From Ptychodera flava (lineage: Eukaryota > Hemichordata > Enteropneusta > Ptychoderidae): 64,000 nucleotides of DNA. Shown here piece by piece: positions 1,801 to 61,076 of this stretch. The stretch's first letter is position 1, and each line of letters starts with the position of its first letter. Made by a program: the position numbers and the translations under genes. The notes under the pieces were generated by a model. It searched no databases, was not told where the DNA came from, and saw only the letters and a list, made by a program, of their open reading frames with translations. The stretch spans positions 28,154,933-28,218,932 of the forward strand of contig NC_091933.1 of the NCBI RefSeq assembly GCF_041260155.1. The letters run 5' to 3'.

Positions 1801-20540
<18,740 letters not shown>

Positions 20541-28489: not shown

Positions 28490-28672
28490 TCAGTAAATTG
28501 GTTGTTTATGCCACTCTGACTCAACAAGCGCGTCGATGATCTGCTGTGATCTCCCTGGCCACACCGGATGCCACTCTCGGCTCAGTTTATCAGCGATGGC
28601 GTTGGCAGCTTGAACAGGCGTGATGTCGTCTTCCCTGGCCTTTTCCAGAATCTTCTTTGTCATCACATAAAT
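28490..28672 (-). CDS. Dehydrogenase exon 10: C-terminus and stop
   Basis: Encodes IYVMTKKILEKAREDDITPV, AANAIADKLS and a tail ending HKQPIY with TGA at 28492-28490. Acceptor tttacag. This is the C-terminal helical part of the ELFV fold. Confidence 0.94.
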   Translation of the reverse strand: MYVMTKKILEKAREDDITPVQAANAIADKLSREWHPVWPGRSQQIIDALVESEWHKQPIY

Positions 28673-31600
28673 CTGTAAAAATTCAGAAAAAATTCCATGA
28701 ACATGGGAAAATCCCTCCAAATTCCTCAATTTCTACTCTTTACAAAACAAAATCATTATTAAAGCTGTATTACCCAGTCTGCTATTTTAGTCAGAATTCC
28801 TAGGGCAACCCAATGTGCCAGGGAAAGACACTTATTTTTTATCCACTTGCCCTTCGGGCAAGTGGGGGGTTCAGTTCACTTGCCCGAATTGGAAAACCAC
28901 TTGCCCAGTATAATTTACGTGTTTGAAAAAAGCTAAAACATTGGTTTTTTATTTCACTCACTTTATTTTGAAAATTATGTTATCATGAGAAAATGTCAGA
29001 CATTCTCATAGGGTTCTCTTCACACTTCTAAGAGTGCTGGATGGCTCATTTATATTCCATTAATTACTAAAGCCCCATTACCTGTATCTTTTAGCATTCT
29101 TTATGTGATTTTACTTCTGAACTAAAACAAGTTTTTGGGAATTTGCTCTTTCAGGGGTTGGAATACAAGTATTGTTAACTGCCCAGTGAGACTGCATGTG
29201 CAATTTGAACAAGAAAAATAATAAATATGTGCCCAAATGTAAAATGGCACCCCATGCAAATATAGCAAAACCAGTGTGCACCGTGCATATATGCATTTGA
29301 ATATTCACGGAAACAACAGAGTAGTCCAATGTAATGCATAGTGTTGAATGTTTTCAACTGGGACATGCTTTGTTTTCTTTTTAGTATGGTGGGAAATCAT
29401 AATAACGGTTAAAATGTAAATTTACTTGTCCAATTTTTCACTAAAGAATGTTTTGTAAAGCAGTAAAAGACTATAAGCTTATCCTGTAAATGGGTAGAAT
29501 TTAAAGAAAACCAGAGAAAATAGGAAGCCTTTTTAGGTCAACAAATTTCAAGATTTACAGCTAGTGGGGGCTTTCATATTCATAGAAAAAATTCTAACAG
29601 TTCATATGTTTGTATGTTTACTTTCTTGGGGCTTAATGTACAAATAATAACAGCCATTTCAATTGTACCTTCAAGGTCTTTTTGCTTTTAAAAGTTTTAA
29701 CTTATCTATACAGAAAGAAAAAATCTGTAGCTATAAAGGAATGTTTTGAAGCTTCTGAAAAATAATGTACTTCTTTGTCATGTTTTTACTGCGCTTATAT
29801 CATACACCAGCCCTATAAAGTTTGAATTGCCATTGCACTATACCAGTATCCTATGTTTTTCTAATAACCTAGGTGGTCTTATTATTGCTCATGCGCAGAC
29901 TAAATAGAATTAAAACCAACAACCTAAGGCGTCGGGTGTTTTTCAATGTGTGTAGAAGCTGAATTTCTCGATGTCAAACTCGCTCCAATTGCTTCTTGAC
30001 AGTCATTTTAGAATGGGAAAATTCACAAACAGAGAGGTTGGTCGCCACGGACAAGTAACTTTGGCTTATTGACCTGAAAATTAAGTCAGTGTTTGTGAAA
30101 ATTCAAAGACTGACCCGTTGACACCAAATATTGCTCATGACTTCATTGCATGCGGTCTTGCCACTCACTGTCCCTCAACAAGTTAACATTGAAGAGTACG
30201 TTTTAGTAAAAGTCCAATTTTATGTGGTGATTTTTAACCACTGGACTTTATTTTTACATTATTATAAAAGTTCATACAAAGCACTAAAACCGCTGTGTGT
30301 TTTCTTTTTTTACCGTATCGACATATTGTGAGACACCGTAACTTCACAGTCAATGCAATGAACTTTGGTGAACGTACGTTCCACCAGCTGAACAGCTTTT
30401 TCATATGCAAAATCAGCGTACGGTAATTTACGGGTACCGGTGTATTGTTTGAACTGGATTTTATTGACAGCGATTATTATATATTGATTCTTTTCGTCAA
30501 CTCTTCATGCAATTTTATGAAAAATCTTATGGAAATGTTCACAATGACATAATATGATTATTTTTGTTGTTTAAGTCCGTGTTCCCTCACCAGAAAATCG
30601 CTCTCGTGAATTAGATTTCTAGGTAATTATTTTTTTCACTTGTCCCGTCGGGCAAGTGGCATCGGAGGTTCACTTGCCCGAACGCGACTTTCACTTGCCC
30701 CGGGCAATCGGACAACCCTTAGTGTCTTTCCCTGTGTGCTTTTCATAAATTAGTTATACATTTTTTACACGAACCAGACAATTTTGTCAGCAGCTTTCGT
30801 GTGGTGCATTGGTCAGGGCAGCTTTGGTGCATACTTACTGAGGCCAGGGCAGCTTTAATGCATACTTATTGAGGCCAGGACAGCTTTAATGCATACTTAT
30901 TGAGGCCAGGACAGCTTTAATGCATACTTATTGAGGCTGGGGCAGCATTGGTGCATACTTATTGAGGCCAAGCCAGTTTGGATGCATACTTACTGACTTT
31001 TCCCATTCTCTACTGAAATGTCTCTCTATTGCCGGGTCATTTGTCAATCTACCATAGGCTTCATTGGCACAGTTGACGATACCCTGAAATAAAAACATTG
31101 ATATCAATTCTATTTAGTGATATACACATTACACAATCAAACTTTGAATGTGGTGGGTAGTATATGATAGACATCTCATCATGGTGTTAGTACAGTTTAT
31201 TTAATTGATGATATGTCCGAGATGCTGGTGAACCTTTGGATGAGCCACTCATAATCATTACAGACGTTACAGGTAGTACTTTTACTCTAACTTGTTTTTT
31301 GTTAAACACTTGACTATGAATGAAAAAACTTACTTTATACATGATGCATAAACGTTTGGAACCCTCCTTATCCAGAAAATAGTTGAGTATGACAACAGAA
31401 AACATAAATACTAACACAGACCAAATGACTCTAATTGTGATGACTTTAACCCTTTGAGCACTGCAATTTTTCCCACCAAAATTATAGTGTGCAACATTTT
31501 ACCAATTTTGCGAATTTTTCTGTTTTGGACCAAATGAACATCACATTTTATTGGCTTCAGATTTTTATCAAAATTTTAGCAAATATCAGAAAAAAATTGA

Positions 31601-34600
31601 CTGGTGTATATTATGATATAGGCAACAAAAATTGACTTTGGCACTCAAAGGGTTAATGCTGAGCGCACATGGAACCTGTAAACATCTTTTTTTTAAAAGC
31701 TGTAAGTCATGAAATAATGCAAAATGTCTTTGATGTTTAACAGCTCCATAATATGTGACTTTCATTTTTGTTGTCTTTGTAAATAATAGTTTGTTGTTCT
31801 GATCTCAGAATCATGTCAGAAGGCCCAGTGTTAAACTTGTCAACACAGATTGTAAGGGTGTAATATCCAGTTTAATTGCTTGGCCATTCAATTTTTAGTT
31901 TTTCAATAAAAAAAACTTCCCACCGGATGTTGCAATGTGTTGTGCTTGCAAGATTCATATTTGTGATTTCACTCTTTTGTGAGAAGAGAACGAAAACTGA
32001 CACATTTTCCTGAACAAAATTAATAAACAATTTTATCAAAAGCTTCCACTTTTGCCCCTTTAAAACATCTCAAAGTAAAATTCATACAGAAATCTGGAGG
32101 TTACTATTTGAATATAAAGACGCTGACTTACCATTCTGTTTGCCAGATAATCTACAACATAGGTAATACCCCTCTCTTTCAACAATTCATTGTCTTCAGG
32201 ACTTCCAAGCTGGTTATTAGCAGCACCACACACAATCTCTGCTTTAATGGTGGGAATTGTCTCCTTGTTTAAGACCTGGATCAAAGGGTTTTGTTTATTT
32301 GTTAGAAACAGTCCACAAACACATGATTGTTTGGAACATTGACATTGACTCTTTCAAAAATTACACAAAAACATGAAAACTTCTTAAAGGGCCACTAGCT
32401 GTGACTTTTGGTGATTTTTTCACTATTTCAGTTTTGAATGTTAACCACAGTTGATAACAATTTTATCAACTGCACTGATTAATTTTTAATATTATTGGAC
32501 ATTTTATGAGATTTTTTGTTTAAATCTTGTTTTGTATTTTTATTAAATGCAATACTTTTTATTGTTTTACTTGATGTAAAGCGCTTTTGAATATTTTATT
32601 GTAGAAAAAGCGCTACAGAAATATATTAAACATTAAACATTAAACATTAAACATTACAGTCTTCTTGTCAAAGTGCCTCAAGCATGTTGAGATACAGTAT
32701 TCAGCTTGTCAACTCTGCCTGCACATGTGTAGACTGTATTGTTATTGCTGACAGGTGAATTCTGGTCTGGACTAGAATTCAAATGTAGACACTATCAGGC
32801 CATTCCATACTTGTAGACACTTTGTTGATAAGTAAAGTGTTTCAACATGCTTCAGGGAGTTGAACAAGAACTTGCAACTGACACATTAACAAAAATAGTC
32901 AAACAATCATCAAAAGTTATGGCTACTGGCCCTATATATACCATCCATTCTAAAGGTCACACCAATATACCAGGCAGCTGAAGCTGATGTCATATACTGA
33001 ACTGTAGATCACGTTGTTATCTTGTTGAATTTTAAGTAAATAAATCAGCTTCAAAACACACCCTGATTTCAGAGTTTATTTTCGTTCCAGTTTCCTGTTC
33101 AATGTGACAACTTCCTGCTATAGTTTAGAAATTTATCTGCCATCTTCCTCGCTTGCGATTGTTTGCAGCATTTCCCCCAGAAACTCCCATAAAAATTTCA
33201 AGTTTATGCCACGTTAACGAAAAAATGTAGAGCCTTTCAAGGTATTTCCATGAAATATCACCGTATCACCTGAGCTGACAATTAGGGGAGGATAAAATAT
33301 ATATTTTCTAAGTGTAAAATTTCAACAAAGAATAGCTAAAGCTTGAACCACTCTTTTGTTAAAGACAAAATTTTCATATGTACAATATTTTTCACCTCTC
33401 AAATATGGTGAATTTGAGGGAAAACATTCACAATGACAGTATTGTACTTACATTTCCCAGTGCACAGGGTGACAGAATGTCACACGGACGAGACATGACC
33501 GTCATGTCATCTATATCAACCTTTTCTATGTGTAATCGGCCATCATGCTGAAATGTGAAAAGCAATACAGAATCAAGTCAAGTGTTGTCTGCCTTGCAAA
33601 ACTGTCATCATCATTTATCTTAGAATAAACAAACAGAGCCAAAGGTCTCACTATGATATTTTCTCAATATTACAATTCCTGAGGTTAGTCTTTTTTCATT
33701 TTTTTATGAGATGCCTGACTTGATGTGTAACTCTCCACCTAGAATCTTTTGTTTCCCTTTTTTTTGTAACATCTCCAAGTGTCAGTGAAGAAGGCCCGCC
33801 CTCTATGGTCTGATTTTGAATGATCATGTGATGGCAATGATCATGACATTGAAATCACAGCTGGTTATCCATGGTTAAGATGGGTTAAACTCTAATGGAC
33901 CACACAAGCTCACATGTCAAATATGTCTGTGAATTTTACTCAAACAACAAGGCTACATTTTATCACAAAATGAAGCTTTTTACAGAGAATCTGCTTTTCC
34001 CTTAATAACATTCTCCGAATTACAAATAATAAATAGAAACAGATTTTGCAGGGTACCATTTATCAGCACGTCACTGAAAGGTCATATTGACACTATATGA
34101 CCTAAAAGACAATGGAAATTTACAAGGGAGAGGATTGAAAGTTACACCATGATGTTCATTTCCCATAGTCCACACTGTAACATTTAAATTCTACATATTT
34201 TAACTTCATTGAACTAAATTCAATGATATAAGAAATACATTTGTTAATATAGACATGAAATTTGCATATGAGAAGACACATAGCCCAGTAAAGAACAGCT
34301 GCTCTATGCAAAACAGGTTATGCATTCACACACTGATATTTAGGTCTAATAATAACCTCAATACAATTGTGCAATAAAAACTGGTTGAACGTAGAATACC
34401 TTGTGATGGAACAAATGCTTCATATCATCCACTCTGTTCTGATGACAGTCTGTTACGTGAATTGAAGGAACATCTTTCTTGAGTAGTTCTTCCACGATCA
34501 CCGTGGCTTAGAGAAACAAAAGCAGAGACAACCTGTCAGTGAAACCACCCTCTTTCTCTCATTTGATTACAGTTCACAACTGCTGCACTGAATCGGTTGA

Positions 34601-37600
34601 AAGTGAGCCAAATATTAAAAGAGCCTGTATGATTTCAAAAAACCTTCCCCAACTCCACAATGGTTTGATATACCATCCATTCAACATTAGTCTGCAGTCT
34701 GAATATGGACGTTCATTTTTGAAATACAAAACTAACACATAAAACTTTCTGGTTGTCTTTGAACTTAAATTTCTAGTAATTTTTCAAGTCTCTAGGACAG
34801 AAAAACAGATGTTCAAACAATATTAAATAGGTCAGTTGAAAATTGTCACTATTTTTGAACATTCGGGGTACAAAGTTCATTCTAGCCAGTGGACAGGAAA
34901 AACCGATACCTTCATTATGACTACATTTCTGGATATAAATAATTTATTTCATACATCGAACGCAATGTGTTTTGTTCCTAAATTTGAAAGAATAATAAAA
35001 TTCCATAATTTTGGTTGAAAAGATGAAAGCTTCCAATCATGTGGATGCTCACGCTACACATTCATGGATTTTTATTACCTTTAATACTCATACCTCCACA
35101 AAAATACTGACCAGAATTTTCAACCGAATGTTTGAATTTGCATGTTAATAGAAATTGGTGATAATATTCACATACATATATGGTTTAAAAGCGGTCAGGG
35201 TTCTGCCCATAGTCCCAAGAGTGCTGGACGGCTCATTAATATTCATGAGCATTAATATTCATGAAAAACTGTAACATTTATATGCTTGTATTTTTACATT
35301 CTTAGGGCTTGATATACAAATAATAGCCAATTCCACTGTACCTTCAAAGTATTTTTTCAGTTTTAACTGAACAAAACAGAAAGAAAACAATCTTTAGTTG
35401 TAAAGGAATCTTTTGAAGCTTCTGAAAAATAATGTACCACTTTTTTGTCATCATTTTCCTGTGCTTATATCATCCCTCACCACTATGAAGTTTGGATTAC
35501 CATTGCACTGTACCAGCATCCAGTGTTTTTTCAAATGACCTGGGTGGTCTTGTTACTGCTCATGCGCAGACTCTATAGAGTTTAAACCAAGAACTTAGGG
35601 GTTGACTAATCGGCCATAGTTTTGAAAGTTGAATTTCTCGATGTCAAATTCACTTCAATTGCTTCTTGATAGTCATTGTAGAATGGGAAAATTCACAAAC
35701 AGAGAGGCTTGTTGCCACGGACAAGTAACTTTTGGCTTATTGACCTGAAAAATAAGTGAGTGTTCATTGATAATTCAAAGACTGGATTCGTTGACACCAA
35801 ACTTGCTCGTGACTTTCATTGCATGCAGTCTTTCCACAATGCCACTCATTGAGTTTTAACTGAACATTGAAGAGTACGTTTTAGTTAGAAGTCCGCTTCC
35901 GTACTTCATTTTTGTGGTGTTATAAACCTTGATACAAAGCAAAAAAACTTCAGTTTTTCTCCTTCTTTCGATCGTACTACAGAGATACTGTGTGACAGGA
36001 AAACCGTGTCTAGTTCATTAGGGCGATGATCTTGTGAACGTACATTCAACAGCTGAACAGCTTTTCATATGCAAAATCAGCGTACGGTAATCAACCAGTG
36101 GTATTGTTTAAATAGCATTTTATTGAAAGGCATTCTATAGTACAATTGTTTTCATCAACTCTTCATGCAATTTTATGAACTGCTTGACCTCAAAAGTGTC
36201 ACTCATAGACATTCATGTTGATTGTTCAAAGCATTGAACTGCAAGTGCCGGTCGGTCACTTGTCAATGCTGGTCGGAAATTCTGAGTGCCGGACGGGCCC
36301 GTCCAGCGCCGTCCGGCGTGGGCAGAACCCTGAGCGGTAGTTTTGAAACCACATGTTTGGCAACTTGCCAGCTTTGAAGGTAATCACAGGAATGAAACCG
36401 CTTGCATTGATAGCACCCTCAGTTCCATAAAGAATGTCTATGTTGTGTGTACAGACCTGCTGTTGTGTATGTCACCACAAATTCCAAGATTTTACATAGG
36501 AGCATGCACACAGAGTCAAGTAGAGATCCGGCATCAGAAACTGCAAATACTCACCAACATTGCCAGCACCTTGTATGACTACTGACTTGGTTGATAATGT
36601 GCCAATACCAAGGAAGTCTAAGGCTGCCTCCATGGCACAGACAACACCTGAAAACATCACAACATTAAAGATGTATTATTACTCTTTGATGGATGGCATT
36701 TTTGTAGAAAAGTTGCAGATCAGTGTTGCATAAATTTTACATTTTGAGAAAAAAGTGAACTTATTTTGGAGGATGCTGATTGACTCATGTAATACTTCAC
36801 ATGTTTTGTCACATTTTCCCCAAAAATACACAACATGCATGCATCCTTGCCTATGGTTCTGGTATTGCAAAAATTATACAGATATGAATTGTCAAGTACC
36901 GTACGTTTTAAACACATGATGTATCAACACAATTTATCACTTATTTACACATTTTAAAGGCATGTAAGTGTACCACACAATACTCCTGCGAGTGTTCAAT
37001 GATTTACGTATAAGATATAAAAAATTGAAATCAAAATGTGTTCTACACACGGAGATCATCAATATATCATTTATTAATGCCAACACTATGAAACGACATA
37101 TGAGAAAGAAAGCAGGCACACATTGAATTAAATACACTTCACAGAATATTGGCAATATGGTACATTCAAAAAATTTCATGGACAGTGCAGATACATGTCT
37201 ATATGGCACATTGCATATACACTGCCACATTGAGCAGATTTCTGCTTAAAAAGACAATGAAACGTGCTACCTCAATTTTTATACACACTGGAATAACTTT
37301 GTGGGATGTATTCAAAATGGTGCTTTGACCCGACTGAAAAGTTCAAACGACCGACAAAGTCTGCCATTTATATAATGGCACTTCTGATCACACCATATTT
37401 GCTGCCGGGCAAGACAAGGCTAGCGTGGACCAACGTAATGATAGCAGGCCATAATCAAATACAGCCTGGTGTTCTGTACAAAAAGAGACATGGTCTCAAT
37501 GAGGGGAGGTGTGAAATTCTTTATTCATATATACTGAAAAATCAGGCAATCTTAGGAATGGCAAAAAAAGTTTACCAGTCAACTTTAGGAAATGCCAATT

Positions 37601-40600
37601 TCACAGTTCATTTGTTTATTATCTAGCAAATATATACAATAAATGACCATGGAAATGAACACATTGCATCCAGTAGTCGAAGAGTGATCTTCATGTTTGT
37701 GTGTAAGACAATGAATTTCATAGGCCTTTAAACACCTGGACTTTTTTCAAATTATGGAAGACCTGATGGTTCCATCAATTATGGAACAGCTGTTATATTT
37801 GAACACTTAATGACAGCAAGTCATGAGAAGGCCTAGATTAAATGCAAAGGTATGGTAATGCTTTATAATGTGAAAATACACTAATCAATGAGGCTAAAGA
37901 TTGTTATTATTCATTTTTTTAGCTCCCATAGCCATATGTATATATGGCAATGGAAGCTATTCTTATAGGCTAGGAAAATGTCTGTATGTATGTATGTCTG
38001 TATGTCTGTATGTCTGTATGTCTGTGTGTCTGTATGTCTGTATGTCTGTATGTCTGTCCGTCAACATCAAAAACTCCAAAACCGCTGCACATTTCATCTT
38101 GATATTTGATGTGTACATGGATGATGGGCTGTAGATGAGATTTTGTTCAAATGAAGTTGTCATTGCCAAAAATATGCAAATTAGTGCCTAAAAAAGCGTT
38201 TTTGGTAAAAAATCTTCTTCTTCATAACCGCTGGTCAGACAGCTTTGATATTTGGTATACAGGTCCCTAGGGATAACCCAACTTGGATGTGTTCAAATTG
38301 TGATGAAATATGCAAATCTGTATTTTTAAGGAATTTTTTTGTCATTTTTGGTCAAAAATTTATCTCATCAAAACCGCTTGTCTGACAGCTTTGATATTTG
38401 GTATACAGGTCCCTAGGGATAACCCAACTTGGATTTGTTTAAATTGTGATGAAATAAGCAAATCTGTATTTTTAAGGAAATTTTTTGTCATTTTTGGTCA
38501 AAAATTTATTTCATCAAAACCGCTCGTCTGACAGCTTTGATATTTGGTATACAGGTTCCTACAGATAAACTAAATATGATATACAGAATATATGATGAAA
38601 TCTGCAATTTTGTATTTTTGGTGCAATTTTTGCCATTTTTGGTTAAAAAATGTGTTTCTCAAAAACTACTTATCTGATGCCTTTGATATTTGGTATACAG
38701 GTTCCTGGGGGTTCTCTTAGTGTGATATAGTGAATTTTGATGAAATCTTTTTTTTTTGTATTTTTGGGTCAGTTTTTGCCGTTTTTGGTCAAAATATTTG
38801 TTTCTCAAAAGTTACTCATGTGATAGCTTTGATATTTGGTATACATTTTTATACATAATTATGATGAAGTCATCAATTTTGTATTTTTGCAGCTAATTTT
38901 GCCATTTTAGGTCAGGCCATCCTGAAATGAGCTATCAAAGATCTCAACCTTCTTCATCAATACATATGTCACAAAACGTTGCTCTCTACATAACACAGCA
39001 GAGCTCTGTCGACCATTGGGTCGCTTGTTAGCTCCCATAGCCATATGTATATATGTTTACAAGTTTACATTTTATTGAAAATCTCAATAGCCACAGAGCA
39101 GATTAGATGAAAAATTAGCATGTAAGTACTTTGGGCTGACCTGAAATGATTGTGCACATCTTGGGTCAGTATCTTGGACTTGCTATTTTTCATGAATTTT
39201 TTTGTAATTTTCTCCCATTTTTGGTCAAAAAATCTTCTTCTCTGAAACCACAAGTCTGATTGATTTGAAACTTGGTATGGAAGTGCATAGGAGTGACCTT
39301 TCCCAAATCTGGGCAAATCGTGGTGAAATTTGCATATTTGCATTTTTTGGCTATTTTTTTTCATTTTTGATCAAAATTTTTTTTTAACTCCGAAACCACA
39401 CGTCCGATTGAGTTGAAACTTAGTGTAGAGGTTTTTACGGGTGACGTCAGTAAGATTTGATCAAATTCTGGTGAAATTTGCATAATTTTATTTTACTGGG
39501 GGAATTGTTTCTATTTGTGATAAAAAAATCTTTTAGCTTGATTTTAGCTTGTTTTGATAACTATATGGGAGCGACCAGTGACATTGTCACTATTTTTATA
39601 CATTAAATTGAACACTGGGAGTGACATACACTCTTATGCTTCAAGTTTCAATGTTCATTTTCAAATGAAAACTGAAACAGTGGACAAGAACCAGGATTTT
39701 ATCAAACTTTTCCATATACCTTTTCCAGTGGCAACAGAAGGATTTCCAGATCCACCCTTTTCTTCCGGGATGCACGTCGCATATCTGGTACGATGGTGAA
39801 CATGATCTAAATCATTGACATTCACCCCGACATCTTCTGCTGTGACTGGAAAATTGAACAGGTTTGAGCAGTTACAGATAAAAGTCTGTGTGTCTGACCT
39901 GAACAGCAATCCACTGCCAAATGTCACAAATCACTCTAAATTCAAGGAAGAAACAAAACTATTTTGGGATTCTGCGGGTGTATACACAAACCACAACATC
40001 ACAACATGACAAAGGCTTCTGATGAGGATGCTGATTGTAATGTTAAAAGCATAATCTGGAAAGAAAACCTTTTGCAGAGAATCACAAACGATGACTAGAG
40101 TCTGTGTGTGTCAAACAAAAACAAAACTGTAAATTCTTTTATGATGAGACTAACTGGATAGAGGACTCTTCGGCATTTTGAGAGTAAAATTTTGATGTGA
40201 TGTTAATAAATTTTACATATTAGCTGAGAGAAATCTAGATCAAGAGATGAACTTTCCCAAGTACTTTCACTTTTAGTAAACAGTACAGCTACTCTAACAC
40301 AGAGGTACTTTAATACTTGTGAGATCTATTTTTCAACCATGTAGATTGCCAGCTAAACTAAAAGTAAGTGTCGATGGAAGGTAGTGGGTTATTGATGCCT
40401 GAGCAAAAATCTGATCTTTTTTGTTATTCTCCTACACACATGTTTAATTTGTTCATTTTAGCATCATAATCTGCACTTAAAAGAAATAAATGTATTCAAT
40501 AAGTGGCTAATGTTATGAACAGACTTGATGTATTTAAGAATTAATCAACATTAACAGTTGGCAGATTTTATAGAACTTAAATTTTTAAAAAGTCTTTAGA

Positions 40601-43600
40601 CTTTTGTTAGTGTAAAACTTCTTGTAAGATTACTAAACTACACTACAATATAGAGATGATTGTTAATAGCCATTTCAGGTAGACAGTCAGGTGCATTAAC
40701 CCCTTCACCACCCATAAACTTGGAACCACCCTATTGTTTGCACATTGGAGTGGTTGAACCTATTCACTGGAAAATGGGGGCGAAAGGGTTCTTTTTGCAA
40801 GAAAACAAACTACCAAAGAGAAGGAAGTGAATTTACAAGCTCAAAAATGGTGATGAAATTAAAATGAAATGATACAGGCGATAAATGAAGATGACGCCAC
40901 ACAAACAAAACAAACAAAATAAAAAGTCACATGCTCGGTATATGTTAGCAGCCAAACAGTCAAACAAATGAAAAAGTGAAGCAAAACTACGTGGTTTTTT
41001 TTGTTATTTTTTTTTTAATGATTTATCAACTGCCATGTTGTGGATGATTTTGTTTTTGTTATCCTACCATAGCAACCGTTGAGCGATGTCAGGAAATCGC
41101 CGTAGTCATAAAACAATGAGGCTCTGAAGTCTGGTAGAATGTGTTTCTTTGCAGTGGGTTCGGCAACTAAGCCAGTTCCTCCACCAACCCTCAAAATTGA
41201 GATGAAACAAAGGCAGAGATCTGATGTCAGTATGGGTGCTCTTGTTATTACTTTGGGGGGTGTGTCTGCTTCATCTACCGGCAAGTCATAACTTTTCAAT
41301 AGTGTACCCCATCTTTCAAGGAAGGGAGGGTCGCGATATTAAAAACTGAGGGGAGGTTGGGTGTTGACAGGTTAGAGACGCTGAAAAGAAAAAGGGTGGA
41401 GAGATGTAGGGGAGCGGGAAAGACACAAATGCGAAAGGTAACAAATGATAGAAAATGTCAAAACAACTGAGAACACAGATCTTCCTCCCTGGAGAAAACA
41501 AAAAAAAAGGAGACAGTGAAACAAAAACAGACATGTAGTAAACAAAACAGCTAGTCAGAAAGTTATCACTGCCAGTTGATAGTTTGTTTTCAAAAAATTA
41601 TTTGTCAAGACATTTTGCCTGTGTAAATGCATACAACGCTACCATGGTTTACGCATTCCTGTGCACCTGATATTTTGAAAGAAAATTTTACTTCAACAGG
41701 CCGTGACAGTGTGAGAAAGGTTAATTGCAGGGTCATTCATTGGCAGATGAAAACACTAGAGATTGGAGAAAGGCACAATGACAACGAAGCACCAGGTCAT
41801 AATCACAACAAAGAAACACTGAAAATAACAGGCAGCCATGCAGTGACCGAAAGACGACGTACACTTTTGACCAGTCCCGACTCGTAAGACTACTGAAGGT
41901 GTGACATTGTAGTGTTCAAAAAAATAAAAAATAAAAATGTCAGTTACCATAGCAACCATTCAAAGAGGACAAGAAATCGCCATAATCATAGAAGATCTGA
42001 GCGCGGTAATCTTGGTGAATGTGTTTGTCGGCAGAAGGAACTTGGATAACGCCCTTGCCGCCACCAGCCCTACATGACAGATAAGCAAAATGACAGGGAG
42101 AAAACAATGTCTCACCAATGACGGTGTAAAACATGGAAATATATATATATATGACATGGCTGCTATGACAAAATCAACTCATTCACGAATACTCTCCTAT
42201 AGAAACTGTCTGTAGAACTTCGCTAGAGGAAAGACAAAGAGTTGTCATGCAACACTTGCCAACATAACCACCAGATTCCCTATGAATTTGGCATTTTGAA
42301 TTTTGTTATAACATCAACGATTTTGGTTTACACAGAATAGAAGCATTGCACATTACAAAAAGCAACAAACGACCACTATGAAAGGGAAGTTAACCGTTTT
42401 TGATTATAAGATCAACTTTAAAGAGGACTACTTTCAATATCTGTAAATCAATTTGTGATCAAAGAGAAAACGCTGTTGGATATTTTGGCAGAGTGTAACC
42501 GACATTCATATACAGCTGAATTATCTTCAGACATAGAAAACAGTGTGTCTACTCTTCACTACACACCAACTCAAATATTTCAAAGGCTGTTTTTTTGTCA
42601 TATATGACTGTTTCAAATATATTACATTGATAAGATACACTTGAGGTGACAGATTTGTCTGGAAAAAGTTACAGTAATGATCATATTACAAAGGCTGCTT
42701 TTGTTAGATATGACTGTTTCAAATATTTTATGTTGACTGGTCACAGTTTAAGGTGATAGATTTGTCTAGAAAGAAGAGTTTGGTGTTGTCAAGTTGTGCA
42801 ATACTAGAAGTCCAGTACAATCATATACACCAGTACATGTCAATGGATTTTGAACTATCTCTGTAACTATCACTGCAGAGTAATGACTGACACTTTTGGA
42901 CTTTAGGGAAGGAAACCAAAACATTGCATTTTTTGCAGATGCTATGAGTGTAATGGTAAATGTTGAAGTCATTTCCCAGTGTGATAAAAGAGAAACTATG
43001 ATATCACAATAAATGCAATTTGTGTAATTTCCTCTATATTTATCTGTTTATTAATAACAGAAAGTGACTCAGTGCATTATTTATGAATGCTGTGATAATG
43101 CTGTGATCAAATTTTGTTAAAAATGCCTCTAATATTATCTTCCGTTGTAATATTTTAATTTGAAGTCTTGAAAAAAGTGGGCACACATTGTAGGTCACAG
43201 CCCTTGGTAAATTTTATTCATAAATCTGTCAGGCAAACTATTTACAAATACATACATTGTATGTTTGTGACTTGTATTCTTTGGCATTTCTTCATATCAG
43301 AGAAATTAGAGTTTTGTAGTCAAATGTTAAGTTCACTTACGAATATGACCAAATTTATGCTCACGAGAGGAAAAACACATTTTAGACAGGAATATCTCAT
43401 GTAAAATGTACTGAGTTGGTGAGAGTGTTGGTCATGCATCACAAAATACATGTATTTTATCAGAATTATTTACAGACGTATCCTCACACATTAAAGACAA
43501 ACTCAGAGTGTCATAAAAGATCAACCAGCAAAATTTCGTCATTCAGGTGAGAAGAGATGATGCATTTGTTCACCTTGGCAGATGTCAATTTGTTTCTGTG

Positions 43601-46600
43601 ACTAAAATCTGATCACTAGGTAAGCACTTTGGTAACAATCTCATTACTCCCCCCCCACCCCCCCCCACCCCCCCCCCCATGTTTCAAGGGCAATATCAAC
43701 ACTCCTACCAGTAACTTCTACATTTGGAGAGGGATTTTTAAGCAAGTTTTTTCTGTTGAAGTGAGCTTGTGTGACAATCTGAGTCAATCCATCATTTATC
43801 AACAAGCACGGCCCATTAGTTGTCCAAATTCATTGCTTCAAAAAATAAAAGTCAACCCACAATGAAAGTACAAAAAGGGGCTGCTATGTTAACCCTTTTG
43901 CTGCCAAGTTCATATTTCACCATCAGGTCAAGTTGGTTAAAACTATGGTGCATTTTAACAAAGACTTGAAGATTTGAAGGTCGCTGAAGACAGAGATACT
44001 GTAAACATGATTTTTACAGACTAAAGCTGCTATAATATACCAAGCCAAGTGGGTGAAAATACATTTGATTCTCGCTCAATACCACTTTTACTGACTTGGC
44101 AGATGGGAGAGTGATACTGTCTGGCAGGTAAAGGGTTAATGTAAAGGGTTGAGTGAAGATTAAAAACTGCAACAATAAAATTATCAATAAAATAGAAAGT
44201 ACATTCATCAATTGCTAATGCATCGATGACAAAATTTTCAAAAGTACTGCACTGAAATGATAAGACAGTCAAACCTACCATAGACCTGCTAATGCAGACT
44301 TGACACCCATCCCTTGGCCTAGACGCAAACCATCTCGCATGTACAGTTCTAAAGTTGGATAGTCCCATAGTCGAACACCACCACACTGATAACAGAATTT
44401 TTTCAAAATGTCAAAGATACATGTAACTACACATGCATAGGCAGTGTTCTCCACAAATAAAAAAATTAAGTGGGTGGCTAATTTGCATAATCATTTGCAT
44501 AATATTAACATAATCATTTGCATAATATTTACATATAGTTTGTGTTCCTTAAAAATTGACAAAACAGTGTACTCATGGAGCAGAGCCCCTCCACTGATTT
44601 TTTCAAAATTCAGTACATCCTCACTAAGTTGCATAAGCTCCTACCCTTGTTTACTCAAATAAAGAAAGGTTAGGAGAGTAAAACATACCGTTAAAGTTGG
44701 TAAAACTGCTCAGATCAAAGAAACTATTAAAAGATGTAAAACAATGAGATATCGAAGTTCCCGTGACAGCATCGCTAGGAAAATACTACGTTTTTCAGTA
44801 CGTTTATCAGGGTTCTCTGACAATGCGCACCCCCGGTACCAAAATAGAAGAGTCCCACTCTGATGTCATATCCGCCATTGTTTACGGCATATTTTCATTC
44901 ACGCACGCGATCTGGGATTTTATTCTCTTCACATGCATTTTCATTTGTTTAAAGCAAGTAACGCTCCATCTGTTAAGAGTTTTTACCGCTGACTATAACA
45001 ATTTTCATTGCTATGTTGCTGTTTTCACAAGATACTGACCGTTCGATCTTGGAAAGTTGAGTTGCTTTTACGTTCAGCCAACGCATGCCGGTGCACAGTG
45101 ACAGACAGTTCCGTAAGCTATGCTACGCTGTTGATCGGCAGCATGCATGTCTTCGTTCCACGTTTACTTTTTATTTCAAGATGTGAGTCAAACAGAAATT
45201 TCACCAAATTGCCACTTCTGTATCTAGGGAATGTGTAATCAGTTTGATTTCAAATTTTTCGTCAAGTAAGAGCAGAAATCGTCGCTGACTTTTGCTGTCT
45301 TTTGACTATGGTTTTATATCAATTTTTCTGTCCTTTACAATTTCTTTGGATGGGTCGGTGGAGTCAAGGGTTGAACAATAGCGTCGCGGGCCGCGACGCT
45401 GTTTTGGGCTGGGAGAACCCTGATGATGGTGTTAAAAGAATGTGTACTTTCTTGGGGGGAAATTCGGCAGAATCAATCGAGACAACACTTAGATCTTGAT
45501 GCGACCGCACAGTTTATTGTGTCACCGTCCGGGTGGCGGACGGTGATTGTGTGAATGGGTTGACAAGTCGGTCGAGCTTCTCTCGCGGTCTTTCTTCCGC
45601 TATGGTCGTCATGACATATCTTGACGAGGTATTAAAATGACAAATTCACACATACAACAACAGCAAAATGTGCCTTGTTGATTTAAATTAACACCTTATT
45701 GAAATTAAATACAGAAACAAACAAAAGCACGGCATAAAAACATTGCCGTGAACCAAACCCGCCGACCCAGAACAAAGGCTGACGGTGGGTTTCAAGAGCA
45801 TGGGCGGCCGAAAATTAAACTGGGCGGCGTAGATTTATCTGGGCGGCCGTGAAATTAAAGTGGGCGCACCGCCCACTTAAAAGGCGTCGTGGAGAACACT
45901 GATAGGGCTAAGCTGACAACTTGAACACTGTGCATTTCAATATGTTTTTGGTAGTGGAATTGAGGCTGCCATGACCATGCGCTCAATCTGCCTCTGTCGT
46001 GTGATAAAAGAACCTTGTCCGGCAGTTATACGGTAGAAAAACAGTTTCTAGGTTGTCATGTTGAGAAAAGTTATGAAACAATGGTACATGTATTTAGGTC
46101 AATCTTGTATGGATTCTTGGTCATGGTTAGTCTTAACCATTTGAGTGCTGTAATTTTTCCAACCAAAATTTTAGTACAACATTTTACCAATTTTCAAGAA
46201 TTTTTTGTAATTCTTTTGAAAATTTTGGCGCAAAGGGATTGCACTTTACATAGATTCCTGACTTTTCGGTCAAAATTTTGGGAAATATCTGAAAGAATGT
46301 TTGAACCTTAAAAAAATTGTCTGGGTTATATTTTATAGAGTTGGCAAAAGTTGACTTTGGCACTCAAGGGTTAAAGCACGGTCCCTCCCTTTGTGGAGGG
46401 ACCGTGGTTAAGGTGAAGTACTACGAATTACGTCAAAATTAAGTTGTGGTGTCATTTTCTTGAAACTTTGCACAAATATTCTTGGAAGTTGTGCAAGTGC
46501 AAAAATGAAATAAAAAATGGGGGTCACCACGCTCGTTTCCATGGAAACGAACGTTAAAATGGCGTCGTTAGAAATAAATGAAAATGATATTATTCACTTA

Positions 46601-49600
46601 AACTAAAGAAAGCAATTATAAAACGCTTAGCAAATGAGTTAATTTTAATAAATACCAAGAATTAAGATCCGTATCTATTGAATGTATAGTTTTCATGATG
46701 TTTGTAAAGAAATTTTAACATAAGGATCGATTACAAAATGACAATATCGAAATTATATCACTACATAATTTTCGAACTTTCTTCCTGTCGTTTTGGATGG
46801 TGTCATTTTGACCAAACTTGGCGGATAAAATCCTGACATAATACCATTTAGTTTACACTTTTAATAAAAGGGTGTCACCACGCTACTTTTTACAATATCT
46901 CCAGGTGAATGGGTAATATGCAACATGTAAATGGGAGAGAAATGTTAATTTTGCGCTCATATTGAATAAAAACCAGCTTCCTAGGGGGTCAAAATATGAC
47001 AAGGTTAAAGGTCACATGTATTTCTAAGAGACTGGGTCAAAAAATTAGGTAAAAGCGCAATTTCAACAATGATAGGTGATGTTAAATACATGAGCTACGA
47101 AATAACCCATTTGCGGCAGGCTGGAGTTAAATCTGCGCAGAAGTGTTCTTAAGCGTGTGCGCGTCCGAATTCGTCGCCCTTTACCTTAACACTTTCACCG
47201 CGGGAGGGCGCATTCTGCGCCAACGGCCAGACTGCGGGAGGCGCGTAAACGCGCCAAGAACGTACGCGTTTATATGCGTTCGATATACGTTGGCTTTGTT
47301 TGATCTACATCATGTTTGTTGACTATTTCCTCAAGCCTAGCGTAGTATACGAGATAGAGGTCAAACCTAAATGAGCATGCGCGCCAAATTTGTAAACAAA
47401 TGCCGCCATATTAGGTCATTTCTCGGCCGTGATTTGTAAGGATCGTGTGATAGGTTGTTGTTTTTCTCTCAGAGGGTATTTAAAAATGGCGATGCGGGCA
47501 CAGTTTAACACCGACAAAGCCCTTGAGCATGTTTTTCTAGACACTAATAGTGGAATTGTCACTGATCTTGAAACTGAACTCGACGAGATGGCGGAAGTCA
47601 AATTTCAAATTACAACTCTGATACAGAACTTGAATATATTCCCAAACCAGTTGAGCAAACACAGAGATCGCAAGCAAGACACTGACAGGAAGGTAGGCAA
47701 TCTGAGCATGCGACAAAGTGCGACAAAGGACCAGTGACTGACATCACAAACGTTGATGGGGTATCCTGTGGATGTTGTACGACATCAATTTATCAATGAC
47801 AATTACACATCGGACGCAACCAGTATATAAGCTTACATATAGAGCATAGCTCTCTTTTGAATGTCAGATGATACCTGTTGTTCGAAGATGAACTTGTAAT
47901 AAATATGAATATTAATCTCATTTATGTGGAATATGTTGTAGCGTATGTGTTCCTCCTACTGAATTTGAGTTGATAAAACGTAAGTGGTAATTTTTAAAGT
48001 GTTACGCTGAGAAAAATACATTTATATTTGAAATAACAAAAAAATGCAACATTTTTTTTGTAAAATCCAATATGGCCGCCATGATCACGTGATCTTCAAG
48101 GCGTGTCACATGACCTTTTGTGCATTTTTATGATGCTCTGTCATATTGCAATACTCACTGAAAAAATTGTCCCGAATACTCAAATAATTACAAAGATATA
48201 GCTAATGCATGTAAATCAATATTTATAAGGCCATATACCCATAGAAAACTACGCACAGGAATGCACGTATAAAAATTAATTACGCAGTGAAAGTGTTAAA
48301 GGTACAAATATACAGTCACCTGTAATCTAAATATGCACATATATGGTCAAAGGGGCGTTCCTTGGTATTCAAAATGACCATGTGAGGGCGCTGTTTTAAA
48401 AAGCGGCCATCCGCTTAAAATCTGTGATTGGTTAGATTTTCTTTCCATGGTAACTGTGGCAAAATTGGAACAGGTGACAGTATACCTCTAAAAACAAGGC
48501 TATTGATAACGGTTTGCAGACTGCAAATTGGATGCAAATTGGTTGAAAAACTATGCATCCTTGCAACTTGCTTGCTTGTCTACAGAATATATCATGGTTG
48601 TGGAAAGCAGAGCAAAAAGTTATTGCAAATCAGCATGTGAAAGACAGAAAACCTGGTAGGCCAAAAAAAGAAAAATTGTGCTGCTCCGATGACACGGTTT
48701 TCAAAAATAGGGTAGGTAGGTCAGCAGGAACTTTTTTTATCAAAATATTTTTTTTTTTAACCCTTTTCCTGCCAGACAGTAATGGCTGTACCACTTCCCC
48801 ATCAGCCAAGTCAGTAAAAAGTGGTATTGAGCTAAAACATGACGTATTTTCACCCACTTGGCTTGGTATGTTATAGCATCTTTTGTCCAAAAAATATCAA
48901 CTTTACAGTATTATGTTTTCAACAGCCTTCAAATGTATAGTATTATGTTAAAATACATCATATGGAATACGTTGTGTTTCATTAATTTTAACCATCTTGA
49001 CCTGGTGGTGAAATATGGACTTGGCAGGAAAAGGGTTAATACACTGTATGCATTTTTCAGGAGTTAAGGGCAGTCAAACACTGGCCACAACATTTTCAAA
49101 AAAATGTATTATAAATAAAAGAAAAAAAATTAAAAGACATCCTTGTTTGTTCAAACAAAAATCAAATGCCAAGTAGCAAACGCATGATTTTATGAGTTTT
49201 TTCCTTACTTTTTTTTACTTAAGTGTCTATGTAGCTCTAAAAAGTTAAGGGTCAGCAGGTAAAAAATAGGGTAGGCTGGGTTATCGGAACAGCACCATTT
49301 TTTTGTTCGGCCTTAGAAAACCATCAGCACAGTTTGACATCTTTATTTTAACTACAAGTTTCAGGAAGCCGATTGTAGGCTGCAGCATGGATTGGAGACT
49401 GGTTCACATTCATAGTGTGCATTAGCTGCCACCATGAACCAAAACCAGTAAATTGATTTTCTGGTCGAGATCTGCAGAACTAAGTGGATTTACTTTCACA
49501 TTGTGCCCACAGGACAAGGACAATTGATTTGCTCACCCAAACCATGGGGGTACAAAGCAGTCTCAACCCTTACAGCTCTTCATGCCCCATCTGTACATCC

Positions 49601-50592
49601 TACAGGTCACATGCCTGTTGGGAGTACCCAGGGTCAGGCCTCAAAGAACGCATAACATTGGTCAGTAATTTAATGGGTGTGGACAGAATTGGAATGCTGA
49701 TTGGCTACTGCAGTTGTTCAGCCCGCCATAAACATAGTCGCAGTCCCGTGACATAGTTGCATGGCTGACCCAATAATATATAAATCGCAAATACAAATTT
49801 GGAAAAGTTTAGTTGACAAAATAAAAGTATACCCTGGAGCAGGCTGTTTCCAGTAAAAGCAATACTTTAATTTGTAATTTTTGGCAATATGATATGTGCT
49901 GGTTTGCATCAGCGCCGCTTGAAAGTCGAAATGTAAATAACGATGACTGTCCCCGGCCCGGGCTGCAACGTGGAAATGCGAATGGTAATAAATAACGTGA
50001 ATAGTGTACCAGATGTAACCGCACTCACTCAATACAATTCCACGTGTTTTAGCGTCCGAGTCTTGAAAATGGGCGAACCAACACCACTTACCGCTTGACC
50101 CCTGTTTGTACGCCAGATAAAAGCGCCCAGTAAGCATCCAGTTCGCCTTCCAATTTGTAAGAACATGCCTTCGTGCTCATCGAAGTCGATCTTGTCATTT
50201 TCGAAAAATGTGCCGATTGGTTCGAGCTCTTCGTGCGACATCCGAACCTTCTTGTTTTCCCGGTCCCAAACCATGTAACATCTCTGTATATCCTTTTCTT
50301 TCAAGAAATCAGCAAATGTATGTGGGTTCCATTTGAGCATATCTTTCTTCGAGCTGTAGTGAGCTCGTTGCAAATTACTACACGTACGTGGTTCAAATAA
50401 CGAAGAATGGCCTCGCTTGTCATCTGCCGAGACTGTCCCGCCATTTACCGCCTTGTGCCGTACGCTTGTAATTGCGGAAATACATCTTACTGTAGGGTGA
50501 ATCCTTAATTTTCTAGTCCGTACAGAGCAACTATGTCTTGCTAAACCGCTGATGACGACTTTTGCTGAATATTTTGCACAAATAAAGGCCAT
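28490..50592 (-). CDS. Glu/Leu/Phe/Val-type dehydrogenase, leucine dehydrogenase-like, with two alternative third exons (complete)
   Basis: Predicted NAD-dependent oxidative deamination of a branched-chain or aromatic amino acid. Exons in transcript order: 50592-50092, 44385-44279, then 42069-41948 (3a) or 41189-41068 (3b), 39845-39720, 36647-36555, 34506-34400, 33547-33452, 32275-32132, 31083-30994, 28672-28490. With either exon 3 the CDS is 1569 nt, 522 residues. Visible family motifs: GGVRLW (169-174); K196 in MGVKSA (substrate Lys); GGGKG with catalytic K208 in exon 3a; TAEDVG with D248; SGNPS; Rossmann GAGNVA (312-317) with D336 after the second strand; CDILSPCALG; CGAANNQL. About 85 Arg/Ser-rich residues precede the fold, ending RAHYSS, which suggests mitochondrial import. 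Bacterial leucine dehydrogenases are about 365-430 residues. The motifs are nearer to leucine and phenylalanine dehydrogenases than to animal glutamate dehydrogenase. Substrate is not determinable here. Confidence 0.93.
28819..30734. mobile_element. hAT-like element, 1.9 kb, dehydrogenase intron 9
   Basis: Perfect 14-bp terminal inverted repeat CAGGGAAAGACACT / AGTGTCTTTCCCTG, flanked by the 5-bp duplication TGTGC. Subterminal inverted cacttgccc/gggcaagtg clusters lie at both ends. No transposase frame, so non-autonomous. The interior is homologous to the element at 35196-36332. Confidence 0.85.
30811..30996. repeat. 31-bp minisatellite, six units, spanning the exon 9 splice donor
   Basis: Units begin at 30811, 30842, 30873, 30904, 30935 and 30966, each of the form ggccaggacagctttaatg followed by catacttattga. 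The unit nearest exon 9 contains the real donor; the farthest unit also keeps a GT donor, while the four between have AT. Confidence 0.93.
30994..31083 (-). CDS. Dehydrogenase exon 9
   Basis: Encodes GIVNCANEAYGRLTNDPAIE and RHFSREWEKS. Its last three bases and its donor GTAAGT are the first unit of a 31-bp minisatellite (30811-30996). Confidence 0.92.
31446..31656. mobile_element. TTAA-flanked MITE, family A, copy 2
   Basis: TTAACCCTTTGAGCACTGCA at the left, GGCACTCAAAGGGTTAA at the right, 211 bp, in intron 8 of the dehydrogenase. Confidence 0.8.
32132..32275 (-). CDS. Dehydrogenase exon 8
   Basis: Encodes VLNKETIPTIKAEIVCGAAN, NQLGSPEDNELLKERGITYV and VDYLANRM, matching the IPQLKAKVIAGSADNQL region. 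Acceptor atccag, donor ATG|gtaagt. Confidence 0.95.
32575..32655. repeat. SINE/LINE 3' tail fragment
   Basis: tgtaaagcgcttttgaatat, then aaaaagcgctacagaaatat and a short (ATTAAAC)n tail. Resembles the 3' end of the SINE at 53368-53733. Confidence 0.5.
33452..33547 (-). CDS. Dehydrogenase exon 7
   Basis: Encodes a charged stretch and then CDILSPCALGN, matching CDIFAPCALGG of leucine dehydrogenases. Acceptor tttcag, donor AAT|gtaagt. Confidence 0.93.
34400..34506 (-). CDS. Dehydrogenase exon 6: second NAD-binding strand
   Basis: Encodes TVIVEELLKKDVPSIHVTDC; D336 in VTD is placed to bind the adenosine ribose, implying NAD rather than NADP preference. Acceptor tctaag, donor AAG|gtattc. Confidence 0.91.
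35196..36332. mobile_element. hAT-like element, 1.1 kb, dehydrogenase intron 5
   Basis: Terminal inverted repeat CAGGGTTCTGCCCA / TGGGCAGAACCCTG with flanking AGCGGT on both sides. The interior (about 35270-36190) is homologous to about 29585-30500, although the outer ends differ. No coding capacity. Confidence 0.85.
36555..36647 (-). CDS. Dehydrogenase exon 5: Rossmann fold
   Basis: Encodes VVCAMEAALDFLGIGTLSTK and SVVIQGAGNV, the first strand and glycine loop of the NAD-binding domain. Acceptor tttcag, donor GTTG|gtgagt. Confidence 0.94.
37919..39028. repeat. Dispersed repeat with five internal units of about 146 bp
   Basis: Starts tagctcccatagccatatg. The anchor gctttgatatttggtatac recurs at 38242, 38388, 38534, 38679 and 38826. 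The 3' part (atcctgaaatgagctatcaa) and the sub-repeat recur at 58779-60183. Confidence 0.75.
37979..38056. repeat. (TGTCTGTA)n microsatellite
   Basis: An 8-bp unit repeated about ten times near the start of the 37919-39028 repeat element. Confidence 0.9.
39029..39575. repeat. Second, adjacent copy of the tagctcccatagcc repeat
   Basis: Begins tagctcccatagccatatg immediately after the first copy and ends near aactatatgggagc, an inverted match to its start. Confidence 0.5.
39720..39845 (-). CDS. Dehydrogenase exon 4: TAEDVG
   Basis: Encodes VTAEDVGVNVNDLDHVHHRT and GGSGNPSVATGK. D248 matches the catalytic aspartate of the family. Acceptor ttccag, donor AAAAG|gtatat, phase 1 on both sides. Confidence 0.93.
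40696..40792. mobile_element. TTAA-flanked MITE, family B
   Basis: TTAACCCCTTCACCACCC at the left and GGGGGCGAAAGGGTT at the right, with the right TTAA decayed to TTCT. In intron 3 of the dehydrogenase, downstream of exon 3b. Confidence 0.65.
41068..41189 (-). CDS. Dehydrogenase exon 3b (alternative): lysine-to-threonine version GGGTG
   Basis: 122 nt, acceptor ttttgag, donor CTATG|gtagga. Encodes VGGGTGLVAEPTAKKHILPD and then FRASLFYDYGDFLTSLNGCY. It is 26/40 identical to exon 3a by my alignment, with Thr where the catalytic Lys should be. The frame is open throughout and both splice sites are present, so it does not look like a dead relic. The gag acceptor is weaker than usual. Confidence 0.85.
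41948..42069 (-). CDS. Dehydrogenase exon 3a (alternative): catalytic-lysine version GGGKG
   Basis: 122 nt, acceptor catgtag, donor CTATG|gtaact. Encodes AGGGKGVIQVPSADKHIHQD and then YRAQIFYDYGDFLSSLNGCY. GGGK is the active-site signature of this family; K208 is the catalytic lysine. Exon 3b, 758 bp downstream in the transcript direction, has the same length and phases. Confidence 0.93.
43649..43678 (-). repeat. G-tract (C8-A-C9-A-C11 on plus strand), dehydrogenase intron 2
   Basis: On the transcribed (minus) strand this reads G11-T-G9-T-G8, with strong G-quadruplex potential, 1.6 kb upstream of exon 3a. Confidence 0.9.
43889..44139. mobile_element. TTAA-flanked MITE, family C, copy 1
   Basis: TTAACCCTTTTGCTGCCAAG at the left, CAGGTAAAGGGTTAA at the right, 251 bp. 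It ends 140 bp from exon 2. Homologous to 48757-49039 in inverted orientation. Confidence 0.75.
44279..44385 (-). CDS. Dehydrogenase exon 2: GGVRLW and substrate lysine
   Basis: Encodes CGGVRLWDYPTLELYMRDGL and GMGVKSALAGL, aligning with GGTRMW and MTYKNAAAGL of leucine dehydrogenases. K196 corresponds to the substrate-carboxylate lysine. Ends in phase 2 (Trp split TG|G) at gtaggt. Confidence 0.94.
44442..45901. mobile_element. hAT-like element, 1.46 kb, containing a nested element
   Basis: Perfect terminal inverted repeat CAGTGTTCTCCAC / GTGGAGAACACTG, flanked by ATAGG on both sides. A second inverted-repeat element (44808-45422) sits inside. Confidence 0.85.
44808..45422. mobile_element. 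Nested hAT-like element, 0.6 kb
   Basis: Ends CAGGGTTCTC / GAGAACCCTG, sharing the terminal CAGGGTTCT with the 35196-36332 element. No clear target duplication is visible, so the boundary is less certain. Confidence 0.6.
46133..46374. mobile_element. TTAA-flanked MITE, family A, copy 3
   Basis: TTAACCATTTGAGTGCTG at the left, GGCACTCAAGGGTTAA at the right, 242 bp, same orientation as the 31446-31656 copy. Confidence 0.8.
46377..46406. repeat. Perfect 30-bp palindrome between TTAA elements
   Basis: CACGGTCCCTCC and GGAGGGACCGTG flank a 6-bp loop. The arms resemble the CACAGTCCCTC end of the element at 61851-63158. Confidence 0.85.
46408..47189. mobile_element. TTAA-flanked element, 0.8 kb
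   Basis: Left end TTAAGGTGAAGTAC.ACGAATT and right end, inverted, TTAAGGTAAAGG.CGACGAATT. The right TTAA is shared with the next element. Confidence 0.55.
47186..48299. mobile_element. piggyBac-like element with internal deletion
   Basis: Terminal inverted repeats TTAACACTTTCACCGCG and CGCAGTGAAAGTGTTAA. A frame at 47486-47737 (plus) starts MAMRAQFNTDKALEHVF and continues as an acidic segment, resembling the N-terminal acidic region of piggyBac transposases. The catalytic core is absent. Confidence 0.6.
48296..48491. mobile_element. TTAA-flanked MITE, family F, copy 2
   Basis: Inverted relative of 17213-17404. The left TTAA is shared with the piggyBac-like element; the right end is decayed to CTAA. 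Confidence 0.75.
48659..49312. mobile_element. MITE, family D, copy interrupted by a family C element
   Basis: Ends GGCCAAAAAAAG and TTGTTCGGCC, homologous to 24630-24993 but 290 bp longer because of an insertion at 48757-49039. Confidence 0.8.
48757..49039. mobile_element. TTAA-flanked MITE, family C, copy 2 (nested)
   Basis: TTAACCCTTTTCCTGCCAGA and TTGGCAGGAAAAGGGTTAA, inserted in a family D element. The uninterrupted family D copy has a single TTAA at this point. Confidence 0.85.
50092..50592 (-). CDS. Dehydrogenase exon 1: presequence and N-terminal domain
   Basis: ATG at 50592-50590. Residues 1 to about 83 are rich in Arg, Ser and Lys with almost no acidic residues in the first 50, typical of a mitochondrial presequence. 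RAHYSSKK is a plausible processing site. MLKWNPHTFADFLKEK begins the enzyme proper. Ends RGQA|gtaagt in phase 0. Confidence 0.9.

Positions 50593-52007: not shown

Positions 52008-61076
<9,069 letters not shown>

Follow-up and report, generated by a model that had tools for sequence, protein, structure and literature searches.

In the acorn worm Ptychodera flava, a gene resembling those for leucine dehydrogenase has two neighbouring versions of its third exon, 3a and 3b, which, as judged from their sequence, most likely represent a tandem-duplicated pair spliced in a mutually exclusive manner. The exchange of 3a for 3b would replace the catalytic lysine of the enzyme by threonine. Moreover, there is very good reason to believe that a conserved lysine-less alternative exon exists, as records from echinoderms contain exons of the same type.

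The gene lies on the minus strand, between positions 50592 and 28490 of the window (the whole stretch of 64,000 nucleotides of P. flava DNA that was analysed), and comprises ten exons (Table 1), with all introns being of the GT-AG type. Splicing through 3a generates a product of 522 residues (isoform A), matching letter for letter the NCBI record "leucine dehydrogenase-like isoform X1 [Ptychodera flava]" (P0001). Splicing through 3b would generate isoform B, likewise stop-free and of 522 residues, which differs from isoform A at 14 residues, all of them within 204 to 237. Both the dimerisation domain (PF02812) and PF00208 exceed the Pfam cut-off in the two isoforms, the former scoring 42.8 bits with 3a versus 33.1 bits with 3b. 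None of the seven NCBIfam matches of isoform A reaches its own cut-off, and the name leucine dehydrogenase is based on similarity, the substrate being a prediction. The gene is probably mitochondrial. Elsewhere in the window, parts of a ubiquitin-specific protease gene are found on the plus strand (8911-19512), where the three open reading frames tested match the UCH domain PF00443. Similar translations suggest two dispersed repeats, one at 38910-39056 and 59992-60132 (minus strand) and the other at 17057-17356 (plus) and 48350-48487 (minus), with one copy sitting in intron 4. No Rfam family matches the window at the gathering cut-off.

Table 1. Features of the leucine-dehydrogenase-like gene of P. 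flava, in positions of the window.
Feature	Position	Strand	Remarks
Exon 1	50092..50592	-	Start codon; mitochondrial-presequence-like N terminus; dimerisation domain begins
Exon 2	44279..44385	-	Lys196 (aligned to leucine dehydrogenase Lys68), same in both isoforms
Exon 3a	41948..42069	-	122 nt; GGGKG; Lys208 (aligned to catalytic Lys80)
Exon 3b	41068..41189	-	122 nt; GGGTG; Thr replaces the catalytic Lys
3a-3b intron	41190..41947	-	758 nt; 29 AG dinucleotides counting the acceptor
Exon 4	39720..39845	-	Asp248 (aligned to Asp115), same in both isoforms
Exon 5	36555..36647	-	Inside the NAD-binding-side domain PF00208
Exon 6	34400..34506	-	Exon model of the gene
Exon 7	33452..33547	-	Exon model of the gene
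Exon 8	32132..32275	-	Exon model of the gene
Exon 9	30994..31083	-	Exon model of the gene
Exon 10	28490..28672	-	Ends with the stop codon TGA

The positions and length assigned to the two exons in a preliminary description of this DNA proved exact, and so did its account of their phase, both exons being entered with two codon bases pending and left with one. Both lie on the minus strand and are bounded by AG acceptors and GT donors. The change of the signature motif from GGGKG to GGGTG was likewise borne out, as was the ungapped alignment of the encoded segments, in which 26 of 40 residues are identical (80 of 122 nucleotides). Inclusion of both exons leads, as described, to a stop at the eighth codon past 3a, and omission of both to a stop in exon 4. 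The claim that only one or the other exon yields protein holds for the annotated acceptors, but it fails if AG dinucleotides further upstream are used: within the last 120 nt before 3b, five of them (85, 79, 76, 61 and 49 nt away) allow double inclusion without a stop, and the CAG located 31 nt before 3b does so too, with a product of 573 aa. Exclusive splicing would fit both the frame and the splice sites.

The two exons differ at 11, 8 and 23 first, second and third codon positions, respectively, and the Nei-Gojobori estimates over their 40 codons are 0.29 for dN and 2.18 for dS, the latter near saturation (dN/dS of about 0.13). The low dN compared with a nearly saturated dS indicates that the pair has been kept at the protein level since its separation. 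When the 42 nucleotide differences were placed at random in 20000 trials, at most 23 of the 40 residues were identical, and the exon remained stop-free in 24% of the trials; the 26 identities of the real pair therefore exclude chance similarity. When both peptides were searched by tblastn against the whole 64 kb, no third copy rose above the noise.

Upstream of 3b, a pyrimidine-rich tract and a CTGAC branch-point-like motif (with its A at 37 nt) precede the GAG acceptor that adjoins the exon. Among the ten acceptors of the gene this is the sole one with G before the AG, the other nine having C, T or A, and the acceptor of 3b is thus regarded as weak. The CAG 31 nt before 3b is probably bypassed, since it lies only about 6 nt behind the branch-point-like motif. 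Regarding how the choice is made, incompatibility with the U12 spliceosome was ruled out by the donors of 3a and 3b, which are the ordinary GTAACT and GTAGGA. A steric, short-intron or distant-branch-point exclusion such as that of OGDH was judged unlikely, given the 758-nt intron with its 29 AGs and the proximity of CTGAC to 3b. The mechanism left over is regulated site choice together with decay of the wrong products. Two inverted repeats with one arm in common (41005-41035 with 41570-41600, and 40801-40816 with 41576-41591) would loop out 3b and could act as a selector structure; the 4.7 kb examined gave 20 such pairs, and these two, lacking a chance control, are not separable from the noise level. 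In a duplex test between introns, the score of introns 2 and 3 was reached by 14 of 35 shuffles, that of introns 1 and 3 by 8 of 12 and that of introns 1 and 2 by 0 of 19, in a method that is ill suited here because it returned very long duplexes, the one between introns 1 and 2 containing a G-run. A G-run interrupted by two Ts lies on the sense strand of intron 2, before 3a (window 43649-43678), and could fold into a quadruplex in the pre-mRNA.

The identification of the exon 3 lysine as the catalytic base, proposed from the sequence beforehand, agrees with the phmmer alignment to the leucine dehydrogenase of Geobacillus stearothermophilus (6acf_A), in which, as counted from the printed alignment, Lys208 corresponds to residue 80, Lys196 to residue 68 and Asp248 to residue 115. 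Isoform A consequently bears the Lys80 equivalent and isoform B a Thr at that place. In a review, lysine 80 of leucine dehydrogenase is cited as the general base, and a Lys80 mutant is reported to display about 1.5% of wild-type deamination, raised to 20% by ammonia (PMC12018205). Lysine occupies this position in 136 of 142 homologues, in a sample close to the query (the best 120 of 4943 and of 4878 matches), and the six exceptions have Val (Asterias and Acanthaster), Ile (Amphiura), Met (Anneissia), Ser (Priapulus) or Gln (P0040, whose motif reads GGGQG). The equivalent of Lys196 is present in 141 of the 142, Priapulus being the lone exception. In this Priapulus caudatus protein, isoform X2 (P0121), the Lys80 equivalent is Ser and the Lys68 equivalent is Thr, and it is likely a pseudoenzyme outside the deuterostomes, to judge from these residues. 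The spider relatives P0041, P0044, P0049 and P0113 retain the lysine and have GMDTG or GMDSG replacing AEDVG, and NAL replacing NNQ. A search for 3b-like proteins limited to this region gave three matches among seven candidates, namely P0015 and P0016, both with Lys, and Priapulus.

The preliminary description had proposed to check related species for conservation of both exons and of the threonine; a lysine-less exon does occur in four echinoderms, at the protein level, but the threonine varies (Thr/Val/Val/Ile/Met). This variety of replacements suggests that the general base has been lost, and not that a new specific catalyst has arisen in its place. The four echinoderm records (Asterias, Acanthaster, Amphiura and Anneissia) are all named isoform X2, and the lysine-bearing records of Patiria and Ptychodera are isoform X1, names that hint only indirectly at alternative transcripts. 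Among the matches listed, the 11 named ambulacrarian records comprise these four and seven Lys forms (Ptychodera, Glandiceps, Saccoglossus, Antedon, Patiria, Holothuria and Apostichopus), so that both types are found in ambulacrarians at the protein level, in records of different species; no sea urchin is present among those matches (best 120 of 4943 and of 4878). The records are representatives of 90% clusters, with one form visible per echinoderm species. Cluster sizes of two (Ptychodera, Acanthaster, Amphiura, Anneissia and Patiria) and five (Asterias) fit with the existence of two or more isoforms, and Glandiceps, Saccoglossus, Antedon, Holothuria and Apostichopus form clusters of one.

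An exon-by-exon comparison of 15 pairs, using the exon borders of the window gene and residues from 140 onwards, located where the two types differ. Acanthaster X2 and Patiria X1 have 22 of 40 residues identical in exon 3 and 86-98% in the other exons; the figures are 21 of 40 and 79-97% for Asterias X2 against Patiria X1, and 25 of 40 and 87-100% for Anneissia X2 against Antedon. Amphiura X2 is less clean, with 23 of 40 identities in exon 3 against Patiria and 22 of 40 against Antedon, together with 22-23 of 35 (63-66%) in exon 6. Hence, three of the four echinoderm X2 records depart from their closest lysine form mainly in exon 3. The two lysine-less exons of Asterias and Acanthaster share 33 of 40 residues. 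Patiria and Antedon, lysine forms from different classes, agree at 28 of 40, showing that exon 3 evolves at a fair pace anyway. Across all 12 ambulacrarian exons, five of them lysine-less, 13 of 40 residues are identical. On these sequence comparisons the lysine-less exon appears as a conserved ambulacrarian feature and not as a decaying copy.

Because echinoderms carry lysine-less counterparts of exon 3, the 3a/3b pair looks old. At columns 212, 217 and 221, the residues of the seven lysine and the five lysine-less ambulacrarian exons are disjoint. The lysine-less exons have in common Val211, Glu213 and a basic residue at 217, and the seven lysine exons Gln212; Glu213, and sometimes the basic 217, also appear in outgroup lysine exons, and may therefore be ancestral states that have persisted, not innovations. 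Acorn worms, echinoderms and amphioxus have Gln212 in their lysine exons. In a tree of 30 of the 142 proteins plus 3b, hand-picked for range and with little resolution from its 41 columns, these exons group with that of Lineus (87/82, not starred), leaving 3b and the four echinoderm lysine-less exons outside. Both Gln212 and this grouping apart from the lysine-less exons are expected if the duplication predates the hemichordate/echinoderm split. The free tree splits the five lysine-less ambulacrarian exons. In six topology tests, uncorrected, their union as one clade was not rejected (p-AU 0.204), nor was the grouping of 3b with the Lys exons of the three acorn worms (0.144), pairing of 3b with P. 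flava 3a was disfavoured (0.0225), and the values were 0.145 for the sea-star exons together, 0.0467 for the two crinoid exons together and 0.0889 for all 12 ambulacrarian exons together. The data lean towards an old duplication, lineage-specific origins being rejected in part only. An old duplication would be the simplest reading, if an unproven one, and we infer a single origin of the lysine-less exons.

AlphaFold models are available for isoform A (P0001, mean pLDDT 86.1) and for the lysine-less Amphiura form (P0005, mean pLDDT 85.3), with residues 1-73 and 1-89, respectively, at low confidence, those of isoform A being predicted as disordered. Such an N terminus would suit a mitochondrial presequence. 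Both models are confident across the enzyme part, exon 3 included, whose blocks reach mean pLDDT values of 95-98 in Amphiura. By this model the lysine-less form is expected to fold, bearing in mind that the predictor was fed mainly with lysine-bearing relatives and carries little information on single residues. The closest solved folds are in both cases phenylalanine and leucine dehydrogenases, and the first glutamate dehydrogenase in both fold lists, at rank 25, is the hetero-hexameric enzyme of Thermus (3aoe).

The nearest known system is leucine dehydrogenase itself, of the Glu/Leu/Phe/Val dehydrogenase family, whose two domains (PF02812 and PF00208) are shared by isoforms A and B, and whose fold and Lys68, Lys80 and Asp115 equivalents are found in isoform A. 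Unlike it, the P. flava gene is an animal gene with a putative mitochondrial-type N terminus, and isoform B lacks the Lys80 equivalent. The glutamate dehydrogenase of Thermus thermophilus (3aoe), from the same superfamily, is a mixed oligomer whose structure was determined in complex with leucine; it differs in being bacterial, a glutamate dehydrogenase and encoded by separate genes. Its GdhA is a non-catalytic regulatory subunit. Ketohexokinase is another metabolic enzyme with mutually exclusive tandem-duplicated exons. OGDH 4a/4b (PMC7969005) and PKM (PMC7954323) resemble 3a/3b in having adjacent homologous exons whose frame bars both or neither, and the OGDH pair is ancient too, as 3a/3b appears to be; the OGDH exons alter the calcium response and those of PKM allostery, whereas 3a/3b swap the general-base residue itself. 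Mutually exclusive homologous exons are thus a known kind and catalytic-residue swaps a rare one, as a survey of such exons counts nine events affecting catalytic residues in its data set, e.g., fly CG42249 (PMC7954323). In trypanosomatid deoxyhypusine synthase, a dead paralogue assembles with the active subunit and activates it 3000-fold (PMC3663545); there two genes are involved, here two exons of one gene, and assembly is proposed here by analogy. Following deoxyhypusine synthase and the Thermus enzyme, isoform B may be a near-dead subunit kept for regulation. Among the matches listed from the open PMC literature, a weak test of absence, titles and abstract beginnings contained no mention of this exon pair.

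Leucine dehydrogenases and their kin are oligomers, and for this reason a regulatory role in mixed oligomers is the likeliest. We consider it slightly better than an even chance that the 3b product is a folded, catalytically crippled subunit that regulates or dampens such oligomers, or serves as a sensor. Splicing through 3a would give the normal enzyme. Splicing through 3b would swap the strand-helix segment bearing the general-base lysine while retaining the glycine loop. Exon 2 with the other substrate lysine, exon 4 with the catalytic aspartate, and the coenzyme domain are constant in both isoforms. The 3b product would then be a folded protein that binds the coenzyme, and probably the substrate too, but whose turnover is no more than a few percent. 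In mixed 3a/3b oligomers it would act as a regulatory or dampening subunit, or as a sensor, and the cell would set activity through the 3a:3b ratio.

It is unlikely that 3b is instead an off switch, either by loss of activity or by nonsense-mediated decay of transcripts with both or neither exon, its own protein being jobless: the frame shifts on double inclusion and double skipping and the weak GAG acceptor favour such a switch, yet it needs no conserved protein, and 3b is under amino-acid constraint, with residues invariant across all 12 ambulacrarian exons. Somewhat less probable still is that both isoforms are enzymes and 3b alters the substrate or reaction (a different amino or keto acid, for instance, or a step for which the lysine is dispensable). 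In its favour, the two classes of exon also differ consistently at positions other than the lysine (columns 212, 217 and 221, with 217 basic in all five lysine-less exons), but the varying residue in place of Lys is unlike a new catalyst, and a Lys80 mutant lost about 98% of its deamination activity (PMC12018205). Finally, it is highly improbable that 3b is a leftover without use from an exon duplicated only recently, its weak acceptor being outweighed by the open frame, intact splice sites, low dN/dS, the four echinoderm records and the disfavoured pairing with 3a of the same gene (one of the six uncorrected tests).

Under the preferred reading of a subunit that tunes oligomers, a single gene would encode an enzyme as well as a copy of it without the lysine, splicing making the choice between them. 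Sea stars, a brittle star and a crinoid have counterparts of the lysine-less form. To our knowledge, pseudoenzymes are mostly known as separate genes. It is conceivable, at somewhat less than an even chance, that since before the hemichordate/echinoderm split, or since early deuterostomes, a single amino-acid dehydrogenase gene has retained, as a splicing option, a pseudoenzyme subunit that co-assembles with the active one, the dose of dead subunit setting mitochondrial amino-acid oxidation. A gene carrying both forms would make it possible to test directly how metabolic oligomers are tuned by dead subunits.
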